Origin: Desulforhopalus sp.
GTDB taxonomy: Bacteria; Desulfobacterota; Desulfobulbia; Desulfobulbales; Desulfocapsaceae
Assembly: GCA_024710585.1 (NCBI GenBank)
Contig: JANJUM010000076.1
Location: 1-32,555 of the forward strand
Direction of reading: 5' to 3'
Length of the DNA: 32,555 nucleotides
The notes under the pieces are model-generated. The model was not told where the DNA came from and made no database searches. It was given only the letters and a program-made list of their open reading frames with translations. How positions within the stretch are numbered: position 1 is the first letter of the stretch; each line of letters starts with the position of its first letter. Below are positions 1,787 to 31,543 of the stretch, one piece after another. The position numbers and the translations under genes were made by a program.

Positions 1787-4148
1787 GAACGCTCTTCACA
1801 CCTCCCCCGAGCCTGTCCCCCTGTCCCCGGACGCCACCTTCGAGCTCCACCGCCGGCAGTTTTTTCGCGCTGTCGGCGACGCCGCCACCTTCCCCTTCTG
1901 CGGACAGGACGGCAGCGTCGGCATGGAATACGAGGTGCAGGTGGCGGTGCAGGGCGAGCCGGGCGCTGTCGACCTGCCACTGTCCATCGCCCAGTCGGCC
2001 TATGCGCGCAACCTCGCCCGGCGCGTCGCCCGCGGCGACCTGCCGCCGGGGGCCCTGGCGGAACTCGAGGAGGTGCTTCGCCATAACCACGAAAAGGTCT
2101 GGGAAAACAGCTGGGTGCGCTTTGACGGCGAACGTCTCTGCCCCCTGGCGCAGCGAGTCCTCGCCGCAGACCTGCGCGCCGACAGGAGCGACCCCCAGTC
2201 GCGACCGCGCAGCGACGCGCACCGCTTCCGTATCTCAGGCCAGGGCCGGGAACTGCTGCGCCTGCCGGTCAGCTACCTCCTCAAGCTCGCCCTGGCCGAC
2301 GCCATCGGCAGCGACCCGCTCCTGCCGGCACCCCTCGCCGCCACCGCCAAAGCGCTCCTCGACCATCTCCTCAGCGACAACACCTCGCCGGAGATTCTCA
2401 GCTTTTCCATTCCGATGGGGGGAGAGCGGTCCCTCGGCGACCTCGCCGCCGAGGAGAGCGCCCGCACCGGCCTGCTCTGCCAGCTGCTCGTGCAATACGC
2501 CAACAGCAGCTTCGGGCTGGTCGAGTCCGGGCAACGCTGCCTGCTCTATGCCGCGCCCCACGCCCCGCGACGCCAGAAGGTGCTCAACTCGCTCCTGCCG
2601 GACAGCTACTACCGCCACCTCTTCATCTCCCCCTGCCTCTCCGGCTGGAAGCGGGGCGAGGAGAAGTTCCGCTATATGGAGCTCTGCCACCGCACCTTGT
2701 CGCGCAGCCAGCTCAACACCATCGCCAAGCTCAAGGACGCAGGAATCCTCACCAACAACCTCATGGTACTGCCCAACACCTCCACCACCTGCCTGGCCAA
2801 CAACGGCATCCATGTCTCCCTCGGCAGCCGTAGCCTCTCCGATATGGCGAGAGACCCCGGCTCGCCTCTGACGGCAAAGGTGGAGAAGCACGTCGGCGAC
2901 CTGGTGACCAAGATCGTCGAGCACTTCCTGCCCCTCTTCGTCACCACCTACAGCGCCGCCCCCTACCGCCTCGATTTCGCCGACTTCCATCCGGAGCGGG
3001 TGCTCGGCTTTCTCCCCCACGAGCTCGACTACACCCATCTGCGCATGCTATGGCGTCGCTGGCGAAAAAAAGCCGGCCTCACCGTCTTCGGCCGCAGCAT
3101 CACCCCGTTCGGCCCGCGCCGCCTCGACCGCCTCATCGCCACGCTCTTTCGCCTCAAGGGCGACCTCGTCCCCGACTTCCGCCTCATCGATTACCTCGTC
3201 ACCCTGCTCTCCACCGAGAGCAGCCCGGGCTTGAACGGCGCCGTCGGCAACCACGAGCGGCTCAAGGAGGAGTTGGGCGAACTGGGGGTCTTCGACCCGC
3301 GCATGTCGATGTACCTGCCCTATCGTCAGCGGCTCTTCGCCGCCTCGGGCTATGTCGGCTTCGAAGGGCGCTGTTACTCCCTCTTCCATTCCCTGCGCGA
3401 CGACATGGCCCAGGCGGTCGACCTGCAGCACCTCGTCACCACCCTCGCCTACCGCTACGTGGTGGAAGGCCGGGTGCAGCACCACGACATCCCCGACCAG
3501 CCATCCATCGAGAGCGAGCGCCGCCAGATCTTTTTCGGCCGCGCCATCGGCCTGCCGACCTTCTTCGTGCGCGCCGACAGCGCCAACCGATTCCTGCGCA
3601 AGATCCTCACCGGGGTGACGAGACAACGCCACAGCAAGCGCTACAAGGGATACCTGCGCATCGACCACGACGACTACAGCCTCTCCCTGCTGCGCCTGCT
3701 CGCCAGGGACGGCGCCGACCTCATCGAGCGCCATGGCCTCGGCCCGCGGCTCCAGTCACTCGAGGCCCGCCTGCGCGGCGAGGAGCCCAGCGCCCTTGCC
3801 AAGATCGTCAGCGGCATAAGCGGCCATCTGCCGAAAAAGGCACTCCCCCTCGACGTCCCCGCCGAGGAGTACAACGGGGCCATGGAGCGCTATTACCGCA
3901 CCACCTTGAGAAGCGCCCACCTCGGCGAGGCCCTTCAGCTGGTGGTCGAAGACTGCGCGCGGATGGAGTCTGCGGCCAACCCCTTGCTGGCGGAAGTCAT
4001 GGCAACGACGGGCGAAGAGACCTCGGCCAGCCATTTCCTGCAGCGCCACAGGGAGGAGATCCTCGCCGAAACCGCCGGCCCGGAGCTGTTGCAGAAGCTG
4101 CTGCGCATCACCCTGGCCATCATCCACCATCACCGGAACAGAACATGA
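1785..4148 (+). CDS. Large unrecognised protein, first gene of a lipid-enzyme operon
   Basis: A 787-residue protein without signal peptide or membrane segment, so probably cytosolic. I do not recognise the family. A G-S-V-G-M-E-Y-E-V-Q-V stretch at about residues 43-53 faintly recalls the G-x-E-x-E-x-Q opening of glutamate-cysteine-ligase-like carboxylate-amine ligases, but I cannot trace the rest of that fold. Other stretches that look conserved are LPNTSTTCLANNGIHVSLGS near residue 330, LDYTHLRMLWRRWRKKAGLTVFGRSITPFGPRRLDRLI near 415-455, and GYVGFEGRCYSLFHSLRDDM near 520-545. The ATG at 1785 lacks a ribosome binding site and sits in a palindromic repeat; the next in-frame ATG (1923) would cut off the M-E-Y-E motif. 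Its stop overlaps the start of the decarboxylase-like gene by 4 bases, which implies coupled translation and a joint pathway. Confidence 0.7.
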   Translation: MNALHTSPEPVPLSPDATFELHRRQFFRAVGDAATFPFCGQDGSVGMEYEVQVAVQGEPGAVDLPLSIAQSAYARNLARRVARGDLPPGALAELEEVLRHNHEKVWENSWVRFDGERLCPLAQRVLAADLRADRSDPQSRPRSDAHRFRISGQGRELLRLPVSYLLKLALADAIGSDPLLPAPLAATAKALLDHLLSDNTSPEILSFSIPMGGERSLGDLAAEESARTGLLCQLLVQYANSSFGLVESGQRCLLYAAPHAPRRQKVLNSLLPDSYYRHLFISPCLSGWKRGEEKFRYMELCHRTLSRSQLNTIAKLKDAGILTNNLMVLPNTSTTCLANNGIHVSLGSRSLSDMARDPGSPLTAKVEKHVGDLVTKIVEHFLPLFVTTYSAAPYRLDFADFHPERVLGFLPHELDYTHLRMLWRRWRKKAGLTVFGRSITPFGPRRLDRLIATLFRLKGDLVPDFRLIDYLVTLLSTESSPGLNGAVGNHERLKEELGELGVFDPRMSMYLPYRQRLFAASGYVGFEGRCYSLFHSLRDDMAQAVDLQHLVTTLAYRYVVEGRVQHHDIPDQPSIESERRQIFFGRAIGLPTFFVRADSANRFLRKILTGVTRQRHSKRYKGYLRIDHDDYSLSLLRLLARDGADLIERHGLGPRLQSLEARLRGEEPSALAKIVSGISGHLPKKALPLDVPAEEYNGAMERYYRTTLRSAHLGEALQLVVEDCARMESAANPLLAEVMATTGEETSASHFLQRHREEILAETAGPELLQKLLRITLAIIHHHRNRT

Positions 4149-22757: not shown

Positions 22758-22964
22758 TGCTGGCCGTCATCTGCGGCAAGAGCGTCTTCTCTGCATAGGC
22801 GATTGAAACGGCAGAGGGCCAGAGGAGGCTGGCCATGATGATCTTCTAAGCGAAATTTAACCGGCTCCTGACGCGTTTTACGTACCTTCTTGGCAACTTG
22901 TCATGCGTTCCTGAATGCAGGATCGTACTTGCTGCACAACAACCTCATGTGAAAGGAGAAAATC

Positions 22965-24473
22965 ATGGTGCGTAAACTTACCGTGCTGGCTCTTGCCACC
23001 GGCACGTGTTGCCTCTCGGCAGGCGCCGCCCTGGCGGCCGACGACCTGCTCTTTACCCTCAACGATCCGATGGCAGCATTTCTCGAGACCCGCGCCTACG
23101 CGAAAAAGATGGGCGCCACGGCCGAGTTCAACAAGATGGAGGGGGTGGCCTACGACAAGAAAAACAACAAGATCTACATCGCCATGAGTTCCATCGAGAA
23201 GTCGATGAGCGACGGTCAGGGCGATATCAAGATTGCCGAGAACCCCTGCGGTATCGTCTACGAAGCAAAGCTCGACGCAAGCTTCAACATCACCAACCTC
23301 AAACCGGTGGTGATCGGCGGCCCCTATGACAAGGGCGCCAAATCGAGCGTGGTCTCGGGCTTCAAGGATCGCTGCGACGTCAACAACATCGCCAACCCCG
23401 ACGGCCTCTTTGCCGACCAGCACGGCAATCTGTGGATCTCCGAGGATACCAGCAACCACACCAACAACGCCCTGTGGCGCTGGGACGGCAAGAAGCTGGA
23501 GCGCTTTGCCACCGTCCCCACCGGAGCCGAGATCACCGGCATCATCGTCACCCCGAACGACGATGTCATGTTCAACGTCCAGCACCCCACCGCGATGAGC
23601 AAGTTCCCCTATAACCGCGGCACCGTGGGCATCGTCAACGGCTTCAAGACCAACGACAAGTTCAGCGAGGTCGGGGTGCCGAAGGGCGATGACATCTACG
23701 ACACCAAAGTCGCCAAAGGCTCCTACCAGATTCTCGCCAGGGTCGGTGAACCCATCCCCAACGATCTCTATGGCCAGCGCTTCGGCCAGGTCAACCGTAC
23801 CGACGGAACCCTGATGGAGATGTGCAACCATCCCGACGGCAACATGTTCCTGCCGATCACCGCCAAGGGCGACGAGGCCTATCTCTACACCAACTACGAA
23901 TGCCGCCCCGGCAATGTCGGCAAGATCTACATGAAGCGCAACGGCGAGAAGTGGGATGTCCTCGACGGCGAGAATGTCAGCTTCGCCTCGGTCAAAGGCA
24001 CCTGGAACAACTGCAACGCCAGCGTCACCCCCTGGAATACCGGCCTGTCCAGCGAAGAGTACGAGCCGGTGTCGGCCAAATCCGGATGGCAGAAAAACGT
24101 CGCCCAGATGAGCGACTACCTCGGTAAGCAGGCCAGCCCCTACGATTACGGCTACCCGATCGAGCTGATCCCCGACCCCAAGGGCGAGTCCGCCAAGACC
24201 CTGGTGGTCAAGCACTATGCCATGGGCCGGCTCAGCTATGAGATGAGCGTGGTAATGAACGACAAGAAGACCGTTTACAGCGGCGATGACGGTAGCGATG
24301 TGATCCTCGCCAAATTCGTTGCCGACAAGGAGGGCGACCTCAGTGCCGGGACGCTCTACGCCGGAAAAATCGCGCAAAAGGCCGACGCCAGCCTCGATAT
24401 CACCTGGATCGAACTCGGCCGCAGCAACAACGGCGACATCTACGAGGCCGTCAAGGCGGTGGCGCTGAAGTAA
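22965..24473 (+). CDS. Secreted PhoX-family protein (DUF839) with circularly permuted motif order
   Basis: A 502-residue exported protein with a Sec signal peptide (cleavage likely after ALA, residue 24). It has the blocks of PhoX alkaline phosphatases, calcium- and iron-dependent beta-propellers: MEGVAYDKKNNKIYIAMS (58-75), NPDGLFADQHGNLWISED (144-161), ITGIIVTPNDDVMFNVQHPT (190-209), LYTNYEC (307-313), WNNCNASVTPWNTGLSSEE (347-365), YDYGYPIEL (393-401) and MGRLSYEMSVV...VYSGDD (420-442). In standard PhoX the TPWGT, GRFSHE and VYLTDD blocks come first and the PDGL and VNIQHPG blocks last; here the halves are swapped. Most PhoX proteins use Tat, while this one shows no twin arginine. A strong AAAGGAG site precedes the ATG. 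It stands alone between a low-information region and a terminator. The phosphatase reaction is inferred from the family. Confidence 0.82.
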   Translation: MVRKLTVLALATGTCCLSAGAALAADDLLFTLNDPMAAFLETRAYAKKMGATAEFNKMEGVAYDKKNNKIYIAMSSIEKSMSDGQGDIKIAENPCGIVYEAKLDASFNITNLKPVVIGGPYDKGAKSSVVSGFKDRCDVNNIANPDGLFADQHGNLWISEDTSNHTNNALWRWDGKKLERFATVPTGAEITGIIVTPNDDVMFNVQHPTAMSKFPYNRGTVGIVNGFKTNDKFSEVGVPKGDDIYDTKVAKGSYQILARVGEPIPNDLYGQRFGQVNRTDGTLMEMCNHPDGNMFLPITAKGDEAYLYTNYECRPGNVGKIYMKRNGEKWDVLDGENVSFASVKGTWNNCNASVTPWNTGLSSEEYEPVSAKSGWQKNVAQMSDYLGKQASPYDYGYPIELIPDPKGESAKTLVVKHYAMGRLSYEMSVVMNDKKTVYSGDDGSDVILAKFVADKEGDLSAGTLYAGKIAQKADASLDITWIELGRSNNGDIYEAVKAVALK

Positions 24474-24498
24474 GCACAACCACCGTTTACGGCTGAGG

Positions 24499-24536
24499 GA
24501 AAGGCCCGGGCATCTCCCCCCGGGCCTTTCTTTTTT
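24499..24536 (+). terminator. Rho-independent terminator after the PhoX-family gene
   Basis: GAAAGGCCCGGG (24499-24510) and CCCGGGCCTTTC (24519-24530) form a perfect 12-bp stem with an 8-base loop, followed by six T (24531-24536). It begins 25 bases after the PhoX stop codon. The stem is preceded on the other strand by A-rich sequence too short to serve the converging cytochrome operon equally well, so its main direction is plus. Confidence 0.92.
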
Positions 24537-24606
24537 CATTCAACACCGGGGAAAGGCGTTTCGACCCGACCGCCCCCGGGCAAGCAGCGGCGCCTGCCCC
24601 TCATGC

Positions 24607-25692
24607 TCATGGCTGGGGCGACTGCTGCCACTCGACGACAAAGGCCACCACGTCATCGATCTCTTTGGGCGAAAATTTTCCCCCGGAAGAGCTCGCCCAG
24701 CCCTTCATCAAGGTTCCCGCGACACCATTTTTAACGATCGCCTTGCTCAAGAGGTCCGGACGCAGGGTCGATTTCGCCACCCGCAGGGCGGGCCCGAGAT
24801 AGCCCTCTCCATCGCTGCCATGGCAGCCGGCGCAACGCAGACGATAGAGCTTGCCGCCGAACGAAGTGTCGCCGCCGATGGGCTTGAAGCGGGTCAGCCG
24901 CAAGGGCTTGAAGTCGTTTTCATCGAGGGCCGGAGGGGTCATCAGCTGAGCGGCAATGGCCAGATCCTCCCCGGCCTTCTCCCAGGTAGTGACGTAGGTG
25001 GTGATCGCTTTGATCTCGCTGTTTTTCAACTCGCCGCCGAGCATCTGACTGAAGGGCCTCATCTGGGTGGTAGTCTTGCCCTCGCTGATTACGCGCTGCA
25101 CGCTGTCGGCGGTCAAGCCTTTGCCCATGCGGCCCTGCCCGTAGGTGAGATGGCAGCGGTAACAGTTGCGGGTGTAGAGCCAGCCGCCATGGGCGACCTG
25201 ATTGCTCTCCACCAGTTGCCGCAATTCCGCGGACAAGGTCGCCTCCCCCACTCCGGCCTGAGGAGCCTCGGCCCTCTCCCGGGCAACCTTGGCAGGCCTG
25301 GCCGGATCCTCGACCGCCTCGCTGGGTGGCGGCGGCAGAGGCGGCAAGAGAGGCGGCCCGCCCCCTTCCTCCCATTTGTTCACGTAAGCTACCAGGGCAT
25401 CGATCTCTCTTGCCCCCATAGGCCCCCCGTGCCTCCGCGCCCACGACACTTTGCAGCCGCCACCTTCGATTGCCTCGGCCAGTTCCTTGCCGCCGTCGTA
25501 CTCGCGGCCGAAACGATCCCTGCCATAGTCGCCATGGCACCCGAGACATTTCCACTGGTAGAGCCAGGCTCCCCGGGCGACGGGCTCCTCCGGGCCGTCG
25601 TCACCGCCTCCTGCGGCAAGCCCCGCCATGCCGGCCCAGCTGGCCAGCCAGCCACAGGCCAGCGCGATGGTAAGCCCTCTGCGTGTCGCCAT
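24607..25692 (-). CDS. Exported trihaem cytochrome c
   Basis: A 361-residue periplasmic protein with a signal peptide (residues 1-27) and three haem c sites: CLGCH (49-53), CYRCH (177-181) and CAGCH (287-291). Each lies in its own class-I-like cytochrome domain. A proline-rich linker (LLPPLPPPPSEA, about 115-126) separates domains one and two. Likely distal haem ligands are methionines such as those in GGPMG, QMRPFSQML and TLMKGW. It is the last gene of the cytochrome operon, starting 7 bases after the dihaem gene (ATG at 25690-25692). It would take electrons from the Rieske/b complex and pass them to a periplasmic acceptor, which is inference from context. Confidence 0.85.
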   Translation of the reverse strand: MATRRGLTIALACGWLASWAGMAGLAAGGGDDGPEEPVARGAWLYQWKCLGCHGDYGRDRFGREYDGGKELAEAIEGGGCKVSWARRHGGPMGAREIDALVAYVNKWEEGGGPPLLPPLPPPPSEAVEDPARPAKVARERAEAPQAGVGEATLSAELRQLVESNQVAHGGWLYTRNCYRCHLTYGQGRMGKGLTADSVQRVISEGKTTTQMRPFSQMLGGELKNSEIKAITTYVTTWEKAGEDLAIAAQLMTPPALDENDFKPLRLTRFKPIGGDTSFGGKLYRLRCAGCHGSDGEGYLGPALRVAKSTLRPDLLSKAIVKNGVAGTLMKGWASSSGGKFSPKEIDDVVAFVVEWQQSPQP

Positions 25693-25699
25693 CGGTAAC

Positions 25700-26494
25700 C
25701 TATCGGCTGAGAAAGGCAATGACCGCCGCGAGTTCGCTCTCGGTCAGCACCGCCCCGCAGTCCTGCCCTTTTCCGGGATCGGCGTAGCCCTCGCGGCGAT
25801 AGGCGGCCGGAATGAGGATTGACTCGCGGATGTATTCCTGGGCGGTCATCCCTTCCCGGCGACCGTTGCCCAGGGTGGCGATATTTGCCAATGGCGGCCC
25901 GGCGGGGCCGCTTGCGGCGCCGTTCGCAGCCCCATGGCAGCGCAGGCAGTGCTTCTCGAAAACCTGCTCGCCGCGGCTGATGGTCCTCGGGTCCTGGGGG
26001 TTCTGCTCAGGAAGCGACAGCGCCTTCAGCTCGACCTTGCCGGTGGCGGTGGCCTGCCAATTGAGCACGAAGTCGGCTATGGCGGCGATCTCGTCTGACC
26101 GCAGCATGCCGCCATGATCTTCATGCCAGGGCGGCATGACCGCGGTGGTGCCGTTGCCGGCATAGATCGGTCGGGTGCCCATCAGCCGCCCGTGACTGGT
26201 GGTCGAGACCACATATTCTCGCAACGTAGACTGCCAGCCCACCTCCTGGGACCTTTTGGTGAAGAAATGGCCATCACCAAGAGCCGGGCCGAGTTGGCCG
26301 ACCCCCTCGCCCCTGCTGCCATGGCAGGTCCGGCAATGCAGGCCATAGAGCATGGCGCCCTGCTCGATGACCGCTCCCGCCCGGCTCGCCGCATCCCTTT
26401 GCAGACGTTCCGCCTCGCCCGAGACGATCGGAACAAGACTTGCCGCGAGGAGCGCGGCGCTGGCGACGGCGCCCAGCATGGCTCGTTGTATCAT
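25700..26494 (-). CDS. Exported dihaem cytochrome c
   Basis: A 264-residue protein with an N-terminal signal or anchor helix (LGAVASAALLAASLVPIVSG) and two haem sites, CRTCH (54-58) and CLRCH (183-187). The first domain includes MPPWHEDHGGMLRSDEIAAIADFVLNW, a typical end of a class I cytochrome domain. The second contains ESILIPAAYRREGY. It resembles dihaem subunits that attach to bc-type complexes. The ATG overlaps the stop of the larger cytochrome b gene by 4 bases, which supports a role as its electron-accepting subunit. Confidence 0.85.
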   Translation of the reverse strand: MIQRAMLGAVASAALLAASLVPIVSGEAERLQRDAASRAGAVIEQGAMLYGLHCRTCHGSRGEGVGQLGPALGDGHFFTKRSQEVGWQSTLREYVVSTTSHGRLMGTRPIYAGNGTTAVMPPWHEDHGGMLRSDEIAAIADFVLNWQATATGKVELKALSLPEQNPQDPRTISRGEQVFEKHCLRCHGAANGAASGPAGPPLANIATLGNGRREGMTAQEYIRESILIPAAYRREGYADPGKGQDCGAVLTESELAAVIAFLSR

Positions 26495-27951: not shown

Positions 27952-28593
27952 TCAGCTCGTGCGCTCTTGCCCGGCAATGCGACGGCCGGTGTCCACCTGG
28001 ATGGCAAGAATCCTGGCAGGGGCCGGCTCCCGCACACCCTGGCCCTCCCCCTCTTCCCCCCTGAGCATGTCGGCGATCGGCATTGGCGCCTGCCCCTCCG
28101 AGCGGCGGATAGTCGTTCCCCGGTCGTCGACGAGCTGCACCGGGAAGCGATCGAGATCCCGCGTGGCCGGACCTTTCAACACTTTCCCGTCCCGAGAGAA
28201 TTCCGAGCCATGGCAGGGGCAGATAAAGAGCTGCTTTTCTTCGTCCCAGCCAAAGAGGCACCGCAAATGGGTGCAGCAATTGTAGACGGCATGGAGTCCG
28301 GCGTCATTGTGGACGAGCCAGAACCGGCCCTGCGGCACCAATTTCGGCGAAGCTCCCGGCTCGGCAAGCGCACTCAGGGGCCCGGCGTTGATCAGGCTGC
28401 CGAAGCTGTCCTTTTTTTGCGGCGGCTTGAGAAAGGCCAGGGACATACCGGCAATTTTCGATGCCACCACGCCGCAGACAACCAGCAAGCCGCAGCCCAG
28501 CAGCCAGCGGCGAAAGAGATTGAGGTTTTGAGATGTTTCCATGACAGAGAGCACGCGCTGAAAAAGGGAGAAGAAAGCCCTGGCCTCGGCCAT
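27952..28593 (-). CDS. Rieske iron-sulfur protein
   Basis: A 213-residue protein with one N-terminal membrane helix (about residues 29-46, WLLGCGLLVVCGVVASK) and a Rieske domain. The cluster is bound by CTHLRC (Cys107, His109) and CPCHGS (Cys125, His128), with Cys112 and Cys127 able to form the usual stabilising disulfide. LKGPATRDLDRFPV is the proline-loop segment. The ATG at 28591-28593 lies 2 bases past the stop of the upstream cytochrome b; it lacks a strong ribosome binding site, consistent with coupled translation. An in-frame ATG at 28542 is an alternative start. It carries electrons from quinol to cytochrome c. Confidence 0.92.
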   Translation of the reverse strand: MAEARAFFSLFQRVLSVMETSQNLNLFRRWLLGCGLLVVCGVVASKIAGMSLAFLKPPQKKDSFGSLINAGPLSALAEPGASPKLVPQGRFWLVHNDAGLHAVYNCCTHLRCLFGWDEEKQLFICPCHGSEFSRDGKVLKGPATRDLDRFPVQLVDDRGTTIRRSEGQAPMPIADMLRGEEGEGQGVREPAPARILAIQVDTGRRIAGQERTS

Positions 28594-28595
28594 GG

Positions 28596-29684
28596 TCAGC
28601 GGGGACCGCTGCCGACAATGCCCGCGACCATCTCTGCGTCTCGGGAACTTTCCCCGAGCAGGACGAGAAGCAGAACCAAAGCCGCCACCAGGCCCACGCC
28701 GAACAGGACACCGGGGCGCTGCCCGAGCGGGCGGCGCTGGCGGCGCTCGATCCAGGGAAGTGAGAAGAGCGGCACGATGATCGCCGCAGCAAAGAATATG
28801 CTCGACAGGGGATGAGGGCAGAGGGCCAGGGCGCCACGCAGCCAGAGGACGAACCACGCGGCGGAACTCTCCGTCACTGCCGCACCACCACTCATCGTCT
28901 CCACGGGGGCGTCATAGACAAAGATTGCCGCCAGGAGAATGGCGGCGACGAAATACAGGGCCAGCCGCAGCTCTCTTCGCGCCAGTGTCGGCCAGAAGGG
29001 CACCGGCCGGCGATCCTCGATACTGCGACGCGCGGTGGCGCAAACCGGCAGGGAGATGCCGTGGACCCAGTGGACCCGATAGTGATGGATGGCGACGAGG
29101 GTTGCCGCGACCAGCGGCAGAATCGCCACATGCAGGAGATAAAAGGACCCAAGGGCTGACGGGGCGGAGAACCCGATGTCTCCTCCGAGCGACGACAGAG
29201 CCGCCAGGGATCGCTCTCCCCCTGGCAAGACCATCCCGCTGCCCCAGAGGCCAATGATGACGAGAAAGAGCCCGAGGCCGCCAACCCAGGTAAAACGCCG
29301 TGGCCCCTTATAGGCGGCGGAGAGCACCACCCGGAGGAGATGCAGCAGGCATGAGGTCACCAGCAGGTCGGCGGTGAGCCGGTGGACGTCACGCACCCAG
29401 GCCAGGGCCGGATTTTGCGCCAGTTGCCATACCGAGAGTTGGGCGAACTCGGGTCGGGGATCGTAGGGCAAGAGCAGCACCAGGCCGGAGAACGCGAGGC
29501 TGACCAGCAGCAGCAGTGAGAAAAAGCCGAGGTAGAAGGTGTTGGCGAAAGCGACGCTGGCGGCGGCGTAGGAGTGCGGCCGCAAGCGCAGGAGCAGGGA
29601 CCAGGGCCAGCGGACAGTCCCTGGGGCATCAGGTGAGGACGGTCTGCCCACAATCGAGGCGGGGAGAGAATGTTCGGCATGCAT
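28596..29684 (-). CDS. Second cytochrome b of the Rieske complex, diverged
   Basis: A 362-residue membrane protein homologous to the cytochrome b at 26491-27906 (both share an F-A-N-T-x-Y-L-G-F-F-S first helix). Haem ligands are kept: His101/His115 (RDVHRLTADLLVTSCLLHLLR) and His185/His200 (YLLHVAILPLVAATLVAIHHYR), again with b6-type spacing. The quinol-site motif is degenerate: GSGMVLPGGE instead of SGYLLPWDQ, and AAWF instead of PEWY. It lacks the soluble C-terminal tail. It is the first gene of the operon. The ATG at 29684 has AGGAGGTG 5 bases upstream; the longer open frame to 29858 is not cytochrome-like. It may have a structural or electron-relay role rather than full quinol oxidation. 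Confidence 0.85.
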   Translation of the reverse strand: MHAEHSLPASIVGRPSSPDAPGTVRWPWSLLLRLRPHSYAAASVAFANTFYLGFFSLLLLVSLAFSGLVLLLPYDPRPEFAQLSVWQLAQNPALAWVRDVHRLTADLLVTSCLLHLLRVVLSAAYKGPRRFTWVGGLGLFLVIIGLWGSGMVLPGGERSLAALSSLGGDIGFSAPSALGSFYLLHVAILPLVAATLVAIHHYRVHWVHGISLPVCATARRSIEDRRPVPFWPTLARRELRLALYFVAAILLAAIFVYDAPVETMSGGAAVTESSAAWFVLWLRGALALCPHPLSSIFFAAAIIVPLFSLPWIERRQRRPLGQRPGVLFGVGLVAALVLLLVLLGESSRDAEMVAGIVGSGPR

Positions 29685-29746
29685 GGACACCTCCTGGCTG
29701 GGGGGACAGGGCAAAGATGCGACGACGGCCCTCGGAGCACGAGGGG

Positions 29747-29776
29747 ATAACCGTTTCACTCTCCTTAGCCTGTCAA
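29747..29776 (-). promoter_or_regulatory. Candidate promoter of the cytochrome operon
   Basis: On the minus strand a perfect TTGACA (29776-29771) is followed after 18 bases by GGTTAT (29752-29747), which matches the -10 consensus at only 3 of 6 positions. It lies 63 bases upstream of the first cytochrome b start codon in the divergent region shared with the nucleotidase gene. The weak -10 could mean dependence on an activator. Confidence 0.35.
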
Positions 29777-29980
29777 GATTAGGAAACCATGAGGAATCGG
29801 CGGGGAATTGTTTAGTGAGCGGAGCGCTCAGCGCCAGAGACGGCAGCGAAGGGCGCAATTAATCGATTTGTTACCAATCACTGATCGCAGCGAAACATTT
29901 ACCACCCATGGTGGGGCAAACGACGGCGCCGGAGCACGTGCCAGGTGAGCTCCGGCCAAACCCCAGCAATGGAGATTGCC

Positions 29981-31543
29981 ATGGATCATTTGCGCTCGCC
30001 AGGGAGACGACATTTCCTCGGGCAGTGTCTCTCCGCGTCCCTTGTCTTGGCGGCGGCCGGGGTAACGCCCGGCCTGACCCTGGGGCAGCCCTTCTCCCGT
30101 CAAACGGATCAAGACGGGATCCAGCGGCTCGACTTCGTACACGTCGCCGACATGCATGCCGCCTACAATCCCGATAGCGCCGGCAGCTGCCCGATGGCCC
30201 GGGTGCGCGGCTACCTGCAGGCGACAAGACGCGCCAATCCCTTCACCCTGTTCACCAACAGTGGCGACGACTACGAAAAGGGCTCGCTGGCCGAACAACT
30301 CAGCCATGGCGCGACTACCCGTCAGGTCGTCCAGGCCCTGGGCTATGACGTGCGCACCCTCGGCAACCACGACTTCGCCTGGGGCCTTGAGGAACTGCAG
30401 CGCTTCTGCGATGACGGGCGGGCAACGGTGCTCTGCGCCAACGCGAAACTGCCGCGAAGGGACAAGGCCACGCCAGGACCGGCTGATTTCGTGGCGCGCC
30501 GTGTCGGCAGGCTGACCATCGGCTTTTTCGGCCTTACTACCCGCCCCTATGGGTGCAATAACCGCCAGCACGACGGCCCCGTCTATGCCGAACACCCCGA
30601 GCTGGTCATGGATTTCGACCACCTCGCCATCGCCCGGCGCATCATCGCCCGCCACCGCCGCCTGGTCGATCTGCTGGTCCTCGTCAGCCACCTCGGCATC
30701 ACCGACGATGAGATCATCGCCAGAAAGACCGAGGGCATCGACATCATCCTCGGCGGCCACAGCCATACCGTGCTGAGCGAACCGCTGCGCGTGAACAACA
30801 CCACCATCATCCATGCCGGAAGCAATGGCGAGAGTTTCGGCCACCTCAGCATCACCTGCGAGGTGAACAGCGGCACCATCCGCTCCACCTCCTTCCGCCT
30901 CGTCGACAATCGGCCGGAGGCGGTCGGCCTAGAGGGCCTGCCGGCAGCCGACGCGGCGGTCGCGCAGAACATTGCCGCCATCCTCAGCCCCTATATGAAT
31001 GAAATGGAGGAAGTCGTCGGCATGGTCAGTCAGGCGCAGAACCGTTTCGACATGGCATCCCTTGCCGCCCGGGCGGCGGTGGCCGTGACCAGCGCCGATG
31101 CCGCCCTGATCGACCCGCATACGGTCTGGCAGGAGTGGCCAGCGGGCCAGCTCAACCGCCAGAACATCCTTGACGCTTTCCAGGTCGAGCGGGAGCCGGT
31201 CAACACCCCAGGCACCAGCAGCCTCTTCCTGGTACGGCTCACGGGGGCCGAGCTCCTGGTGGCACAACGGGAACTGGCCGACTGCGCCTATTGCGGGCCA
31301 ACCAGGGTAGACCCCCACGGATCCTATCTCCTCGCCATGCAGAAGAACCGACTCATCGGCCGCCCCGATCTCTTCTACAGCACCCCGTTCTCCCCGCCGC
31401 AGGCATCAGCCGAGCTATGGCAGGTGGTTTCCCGCCACGCCGAGGAACAGTGGCGACGCAACCTCGCCCTCGACCAGCGACACGCCGACGGCGGCATGGT
31501 CGCCCTCTCCAGCCCCCGGGCAAATGACCACCCGGCTCTATAA
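29981..31543 (+). CDS. Tat-exported 5'-nucleotidase/UshA-like metallophosphatase
   Basis: A 520-residue protein. The N-terminus PGRRHFLGQCLSASLVLAAAG is a twin-arginine signal (Arg9-Arg10). The calcineurin-like metal sites are complete: DFVHVADMHA (Asp57, His59), NSGDDY (Asp96), GNHDFAWG (Asn129, His130), LVSHLG (His237) and GGHSHT (His260, His262). A 5'-nucleotidase C-terminal domain follows (AALIDPHTVWQEWPAGQLNRQNILDAFQVE and LFLVRLTGAELL), which gives nucleotide specificity in UshA. It would release phosphate from nucleotides or related esters in the periplasm. The ATG at 29981 has GGAG 6 bases upstream; ATG 29969 and GTG 29945 are in frame but less well placed for the Tat motif. With PhoX it makes two exported phosphoesterases flanking the cytochrome operon. 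Confidence 0.87.
   Translation: MDHLRSPGRRHFLGQCLSASLVLAAAGVTPGLTLGQPFSRQTDQDGIQRLDFVHVADMHAAYNPDSAGSCPMARVRGYLQATRRANPFTLFTNSGDDYEKGSLAEQLSHGATTRQVVQALGYDVRTLGNHDFAWGLEELQRFCDDGRATVLCANAKLPRRDKATPGPADFVARRVGRLTIGFFGLTTRPYGCNNRQHDGPVYAEHPELVMDFDHLAIARRIIARHRRLVDLLVLVSHLGITDDEIIARKTEGIDIILGGHSHTVLSEPLRVNNTTIIHAGSNGESFGHLSITCEVNSGTIRSTSFRLVDNRPEAVGLEGLPAADAAVAQNIAAILSPYMNEMEEVVGMVSQAQNRFDMASLAARAAVAVTSADAALIDPHTVWQEWPAGQLNRQNILDAFQVEREPVNTPGTSSLFLVRLTGAELLVAQRELADCAYCGPTRVDPHGSYLLAMQKNRLIGRPDLFYSTPFSPPQASAELWQVVSRHAEEQWRRNLALDQRHADGGMVALSSPRANDHPAL

Follow-up and report, generated by a model that had tools for sequence, protein, structure and literature searches.

Can a metallophosphatase of the PhoX (DUF839) family be built from a chain whose two halves have changed places, and if so, what is such a protein doing beside a cluster of cytochrome genes? 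Both questions are raised by a gene of Desulforhopalus sp. on contig JANJUM010000076.1 (assembly GCA_024710585.1, genome G000), of which we analysed a stretch of 32,555 nt, hereafter the window. The gene and its parts are as follows.

22952..22958, plus strand: ribosome-binding-site-like AAAGGAG ahead of the ATG of the permuted PhoX gene (read from sequence)
22965..24473, plus strand: permuted PhoX gene, 502 aa (open reading frame; PF05787 match of 124.1 bits in two stretches, order swapped)
22965..23039, plus strand: Sec-like signal peptide, about residues 1-25, without twin arginine (inspection and motif scan)
23064..23486, plus strand: blocks X1-X3, residues 34-174, lying within the C-terminal half of canonical PhoX (profile, PDB and block HMMs)
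23490..23606, plus strand: block Y, residues 176-214, GAEITG...NVQHP (blastp, Pfam and block HMMs)
23607..23732, plus strand: fused linker, residues 215-256 (by-eye alignment; weak HMM support)
23733..24434, plus strand: blocks Z1-Z4, residues 257-490, the N-terminal half of canonical PhoX (profile, PDB, block HMMs and residue comparison)

Promoter and terminator scans around the gene returned nothing above chance. On the minus strand, an open reading frame of 553 aa (22878-24539) spans the entire PhoX gene and has protein-level matches at six of the eight orthologous loci, probably a composition effect.

Two halves in swapped order

The initial annotation held that the motifs of PhoX/DUF839 are present with the halves of the protein swapped, and both parts of that claim are borne out by reading the sequence and by profile comparison. 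The first half carries ETR (residues 41-43), GAT (50-52), NPCG (93-96), PDGL (145-148), TPND (196-199) and FNVQHP (203-208), while the second carries TNYE (309-312), NC (349-350), TPWNT (355-359) and YGYPIE (395-400), followed towards the C-terminus by MGRLSYE (420-426), VYSGDD (437-442) and TLYAGK (463-468); TNYE, NC/TPWNT, MGRLSYE and GDD all fall in blocks Z1-Z4. The motifs had been recognised correctly in substance, but their spelling needs amending (TPWNT rather than TPWGT, TPND rather than F-T-P-D, and YGYPIE for YGY-x-E).

Against PF05787, whose curated cut-off is 24 bits, the protein is matched in two separate pieces: residues 39-208 align to profile positions 325-514 and residues 335-490 to the earlier positions 149-317, so that the pieces do not overlap and stand in swapped order. 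By score the protein belongs to the family, but its blocks do not stand in the canonical order. Aligned apart to the same profile, each half is significant in its own right (residues 1-255, E = 7.6e-15; residues 256-502, E = 3.3e-19), again on swapped profile ranges. PhoX was the sole convincing match in a phmmer search of the PDB (E = 3.6e-8 overall), and comparison with Pseudomonas fluorescens PhoX returned the same swap: residues 37-210 align to 366-554 of the PhoX chain (24.8 bits) and residues 343-453 to 172-303, the latter at only 6.9 bits. Neither the standard order nor a single contiguous match arose. NCBIfam has no model that matches the window protein, and none of its PhoX models matched any of the three chain orders tested, namely the canonical one, the present one and a third described below.

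Beta-propellers are internally repetitive, and it might be supposed that the profile pieces have settled on the wrong blades of a protein whose real order is canonical. We regard this as very improbable. The two pieces fall on different, non-overlapping ranges of the profile and are each significant alone; the family-specific blocks NC...TPWNT, MGRxSYE, PDGL and QHP each occur at a single place; and canonical proteins of the same taxonomic order give contiguous matches with the same profile. The specificity of these blocks leads us to reject a pseudo-symmetry artefact. With support from the profile, from the PDB sequence, from nine genomes (see below) and from residue comparison with canonical relatives of about 40% identity, this protein is, at the level of sequence, almost certainly a circularly permuted member of the PhoX (DUF839) metallophosphatase family.

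Distribution of the permuted form

PF05787 was matched in 22 of 257 genomes of the host's taxonomic order (the class-level search covered the same 257), with a contiguous canonical match in 13 and a two-piece swapped match in nine: G000 (the window), G001, G025, G030 (a Desulfobulbaceae MAG), G142 (the isolate Desulfogranum mediterraneum DSM 13871), G493, G549, G555 and G560. By blastp the eight orthologs are colinear with the window protein and 69-79% identical to it; the alignment spans residues 21-501 for G001 and essentially the full length for the other seven. Counting that of the window, seven genera are represented. Another genome from the same genus as the window, G011, has the canonical form instead, and canonical relatives within the order share 37-40% core identity with the window protein.

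The window's genome is split into 276 contigs, and the swapped order might accordingly be put down to faulty assembly or gene order in a fragmented genome. The open reading frame is, however, uninterrupted, and colinear orthologs occur in eight further genomes, one of them that of the D. mediterraneum isolate. Because independent genomes carry the same form, we reject an assembly artefact, the probability of which we put at next to nothing.

In a phylum-wide sample of 395 genomes, PF05787 was found in 13, with the permuted form in G000 and G142 only; G257 (contig end) and G353 (fragment) were too partial to type. The viral contigs scanned held no relative of the permuted protein. A scan of genome contigs with exact peptide patterns recovered two close orthologs only, a result that does not imply absence elsewhere. 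Among the canonical loci of the order that were looked at, three have PhoX next to a gene for a protein of about 1050 aa with PD40 propeller repeats (L072:6067-9234, L074:6274-9435 and L085:685-3753).

A third chain order

Block HMMs, for which the underlying rotated alignment includes many of the proteins scored, give the canonical order as Z1-Z4, X1-X3, Y and that of the window group as X1-X3, Y, linker, Z1-Z4. At least seven of the eight blocks were found in 44 of 51 sources, which divide into 25 with Z-X-Y, nine with the window form X-Y-L-Z and ten with a third order, Y-L-Z-X. The last comprises haloarchaeal proteins (L091, L093, L098, L100-L103 and L112) and two from Pseudoalteromonas (L092 and L105). 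Block Y, the final block of canonical PhoX, is here the opening one; by blastp (L091-L093 and L098) the chain starts at the equivalent of window residues 174-178, inside a hairpin, and on L091, L092 and L093 the main Pfam match stops at profile position 453-454 of 515. Third-order proteins are annotated as alkaline phosphatase PhoX wherever the record is annotated, L092 being unannotated.

Two members of this group have features of their own. The L092 protein (L092:2234-4162, Pseudoalteromonas sp. NC201) has a lipoprotein-like start by inspection and a collagen-like Gly-rich repeat ahead of the propeller (Pfam Collagen, 1.1e-9, residues 24-80). That of L098 (2366-5071, Salarchaeum sp. JOR-1) is 902 aa long, with weak EF-hand/dockerin-like matches at its C-terminus that lie under the curated cut-offs. 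Separately, the plasmid L104, from Natrinema sp. SYSU A 869, has a second PhoX copy whose annotation splits it into a pair of genes (1357-1836 and 1833-3023).

Where the chain was probably joined and opened

The linker of the window protein, PYNRGTVGIVNGFKTNDKFSEVGVPKGDD, matches by eye both canonical C-terminal tails (e.g. KGIVGYITGLP) and mature N-termini (e.g. VEFEQLSLPTTAEE), the old C-terminus (RGTVGIVNG) being joined in this alignment to the old mature N-terminus (FSEVGVP...) near residues 227-232. Both new ends fall in the region flanked by WIELG...EAVKA and DPMAAFLETR. Conservation is poor there, and the canonical rows looked at are longer by some 30-40 residues. From the linker alignment and the position of the new ends, it looks as if the old ends were joined and an old linker was opened.

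HMMs of the fused junction were run on 25 canonical proteins. For the N-terminal half, 16 of the 22 proteins with a reported match had their best one close to the start of the mature protein (best E there 0.036; in L077 and L078 the match covers the inner end of the half only), and L075 had it just ahead of the PhoX domain (E = 0.0043). For the C-terminal half, the best match lay at the C-terminus in five of 18 reported, none of them significant. The HMMs thus give weak though consistent backing to the N-terminal side of the junction; the C-terminal side is visible by eye only, with little HMM support.

Under the scheme that we propose, the former C-terminal tail would have run on into the former start of the mature protein near residues 227-232, and the chain would have been broken in the linker, itself weakly conserved, by which the halves are connected in canonical PhoX; a Sec-like signal peptide would have come to stand at the new N-terminus. 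Tandem duplication followed by fusion and trimming is the standard route to circular permutation, and an in-frame version of it is the route we infer, rather than observe, here; a search for fossils of tandem duplication found no doubled block in the proteins displayed from the block-HMM scan.

Could the window order and that of haloarchaea and Pseudoalteromonas stem from a single fusion event, with the ring opened at two sites? The contiguous linker 215-256 is common to both orders, and the third-order group includes the highest core identities to the window protein outside its orthologs (36.7-47.2% over 381 trimmed columns, versus 29.3-42.9% for canonical proteins). In the tree, the window group and the third-order group each form one clade, but the maximum likelihood topology joins the window form with near-canonical proteins (p-AU 0.66, versus 0.21 for window and third order together and 0.16 for third order with near-canonical proteins; none is rejected). 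We rate a single fusion at slightly less than an even chance.

Active site, fold and export

In the numbering of the phmmer alignment, PhoX residues C179, E194, E273, D292, R385 and E387 correspond to C350, E365, E426, D442, K57 and E59 of the permuted protein, which keeps the Fe/Ca-site positions except for K57 in place of R385. C179, E194, E273 and E387 of PhoX have roles in its Fe/Ca site. For R385 and D292, a place in the PhoX active site is stated in PMC11098088. Ten positions (K57, E59, D146, D161, H207, C350, E364, E365, E426 and D442) are invariant in 34 sequences drawn from all three orders, a count that leaves out L090, which has R at 57. Of the 23 rows typed canonical, 22 have lysine at the R385 position; one of the 23 is the partial and mistyped L099. 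Since it is invariant across all three orders counted, this lysine is a trait of the subfamily and not a mark of permutation; it could change activity.

AlphaFold, run on three sequences (the window protein, L033 and L034), gave a pLDDT of 38.7, too low to be of use. We think it very probable that the permuted chain forms the six-bladed propeller of PhoX, closed by other terminal strands; the junction may lie between blades, as the initial annotation proposed. That it also retains the Fe/Ca site and is a putative periplasmic phosphomonoesterase is a proposition on which we are evenly divided.

Compared with P. fluorescens PhoX (PF05787; PDB 3zwu and 4amf), the permuted protein is homologous over both halves and has corresponding site residues, but its halves are swapped, it has K57 for R385, it carries a Sec-like rather than a Tat signal, and its gene adjoins a cytochrome cluster. 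Canonical relatives within the order (e.g. L071 of G011 and L072 of G020) share its conserved residues and its lack of twin arginine; unlike it they have the canonical chain, in three cases a PD40 neighbour, and no cytochrome cluster found in their flanks.

PhoX is described in PMC4223295 as exported by Tat. The initial annotation had read a Sec rather than a Tat signal in the window protein and had tied it to the unusual form. The first reading stands by inspection, and a simple pattern scan found a twin-arginine motif in none of the nine permuted proteins. The second finds no support, as the motif was found in six of ten third-order proteins but in just six of 25 canonical ones, being absent from 19 of the 25, including all 17 from the phylum except L090. 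We accordingly rejected the idea that a Sec signal distinguishes permuted PhoX: canonical relatives of the order likewise lack the twin-arginine motif. Its absence from 19 canonical proteins also makes a Tat signal a poor criterion for the family. That metal loading of the permuted protein takes place outside the cell is a guess.

A cytochrome cluster beside the permuted gene

Downstream of the PhoX gene in the window lies a cluster on the opposite strand.

24607..25692, minus strand: three-haem cytochrome c, 361 aa, CXXCH at 49, 177 and 287; convergent with the PhoX gene
25700..26494, minus strand: two-haem cytochrome c, 264 aa
26491..27906, minus strand: cytochrome b, 471 aa, with a C-terminal extension
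27952..28857, minus strand: Rieske 2Fe-2S protein (PF00355), the true start probably inside the open reading frame

The Rieske reading frames of five relatives are 191-231 aa long. Two further genes lie beyond. Immediately upstream of the Rieske gene is a second cytochrome b-like gene (28596-29858, minus strand), about 35-39% identical to the first, whose best match at orthologous loci is the cluster's own cytochrome b. Divergent from the cluster is a calcineurin-like phosphoesterase gene (29945-31543, plus strand; PF00149, 1.8e-5), of which G001 has an apparent relative about 0.34 kb ahead of its permuted PhoX gene.

At E <= 1e-20, the three-haem cytochrome c occurs in nine of the 257 genomes (seven of 69 genera), the same nine that carry permuted PhoX, and in none of the 13 canonical-PhoX genomes of the order. 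The cluster (Rieske, cytochrome b, two-haem and three-haem cytochrome c) adjoins the permuted gene or comes within about 3.3 kb of it in eight of the nine; in G493 the two are on different contigs. In G001 and G555 the permuted gene and the cluster share a strand, the gene coming first, and 85-86 bp separate them. In the other six linked genomes the two are convergent, and so do not form one transcript there. The spacing reaches about 3.3 kb in G560, and in G030 one reading frame of 193 aa intervenes. Contig ends interrupt the clusters of G025 and G030 in a manner consistent with linkage, the Rieske gene and part of cytochrome b of G030 being found at the end of another contig.

Cytochrome b has near full-length matches (E <= 2e-110) in seven permuted-form genomes and contig-edge fragments in G025 and G030. 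The next best match, 4.7e-63 in G004, adjoins a Rieske gene; in the 10 kb examined there, neither of the two cytochromes c has a relative. At canonical and third-order loci (L071-L112), none of the cluster's genes turned up in the flanks examined. By Fisher's test the co-occurrence has a probability of 9e-17 by genome and 9e-10 by genus, figures that assume an independence which fails, the association being inflated by physical linkage and shared ancestry. Distances among the permuted proteins correlate, at r = 0.44-0.84 for 15-28 pairs, with those among the proteins that the cluster encodes. No Pst/Pho genes were present among the neighbours scanned, which are part of all neighbours.

Phosphatase or partner in electron transfer?

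Overall, a permuted PhoX-type propeller held together with a bc-type complex is probably the best explanation of these observations. As to what the association means, a phosphatase that scavenges phosphate would not usually be expected beside cytochrome genes, which counts against such a role. Since the gene appears to be inherited together with a complex of Rieske protein, cytochrome b and two cytochromes c, we lean slightly towards a functional tie to that complex over general phosphate scavenging. Pointers towards a phosphatase role do exist, in the calcineurin-like neighbour and in the third-order genes of haloarchaea, some of which lie near phosphatase, 5'-nucleotidase or PhoU genes (L091, L100, L103 and the partial L099).

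A more radical reading is that the protein has been repurposed as a periplasmic partner of the bc complex, be it an electron-transfer-linked enzyme, an assembly factor or a sensor, and is no longer a phosphatase in vivo. The coincidence of the three-haem cytochrome with the permuted gene, and its absence from canonical-only genomes, would fit this, as would the retention of both in G493 on separate contigs and the co-directional placement of the gene ahead of the cluster in G001 and G555. Set against these are the putative metal-site positions, intact save for K in place of R385, the convergent arrangement in six other linked genomes, and the phosphoesterase gene nearby with its apparent relative in G001. 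On balance we consider loss of the phosphatase role unlikely. Slightly more doubtful still is the specific proposal that permuted PhoX is a dedicated periplasmic partner of the bc complex in this order of sulfate reducers, the permutation having rewired an Fe/Ca propeller so that its role shifted from phosphate scavenging to quinol-cytochrome c electron transfer. Were it correct, permuted PhoX and the bc-type complex should be kept or lost together. In cable bacteria, electrons are described in PMC12093952 as reaching the periplasm by way of Rieske and CytB, and PMC10030654 lists both; the main texts of these two papers contain no word starting with 'phosphatase'.

Implications for the PhoX family

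The enzyme family is known; its rearranged chain orders are ones for which we found no earlier report, the open-licence literature searched yielding no circularly permuted PhoX, and the genomic partner is unexpected. One published case may deserve a second look. Psip1 of marine picocyanobacteria is described, in PMC11098088, as having PhoX-like active-site residues with K for R385, a beta-propeller, and dependence on Fe and Ca, and it was suggested there to be possibly convergent with PhoX, as it lacks sequence identity. By that description, Psip1 shares the lysine with the window's subfamily, and the main text of PMC11098088 contains no word starting with 'permut'. The convergence reading merits a permutation-aware re-test.

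PhoX has a rare Fe/Ca cofactor, according to PMC4223295, and in the permuted protein both halves of the chain contribute residues that match the cofactor site. One catalytic family exists in three natural chain orders with about 37-47% core identity among its nearer members. Because the orders can be aligned residue by residue, the strand that closes the ring, the loading of the cofactor and the way in which permutation arises in propeller enzymes all become testable. Chain order of this kind goes unnoticed because plasmid annotation labels the third order plain PhoX. For the window's own form, co-occurrence with a cytochrome bc-type cluster offers a testable function beyond phosphate scavenging.
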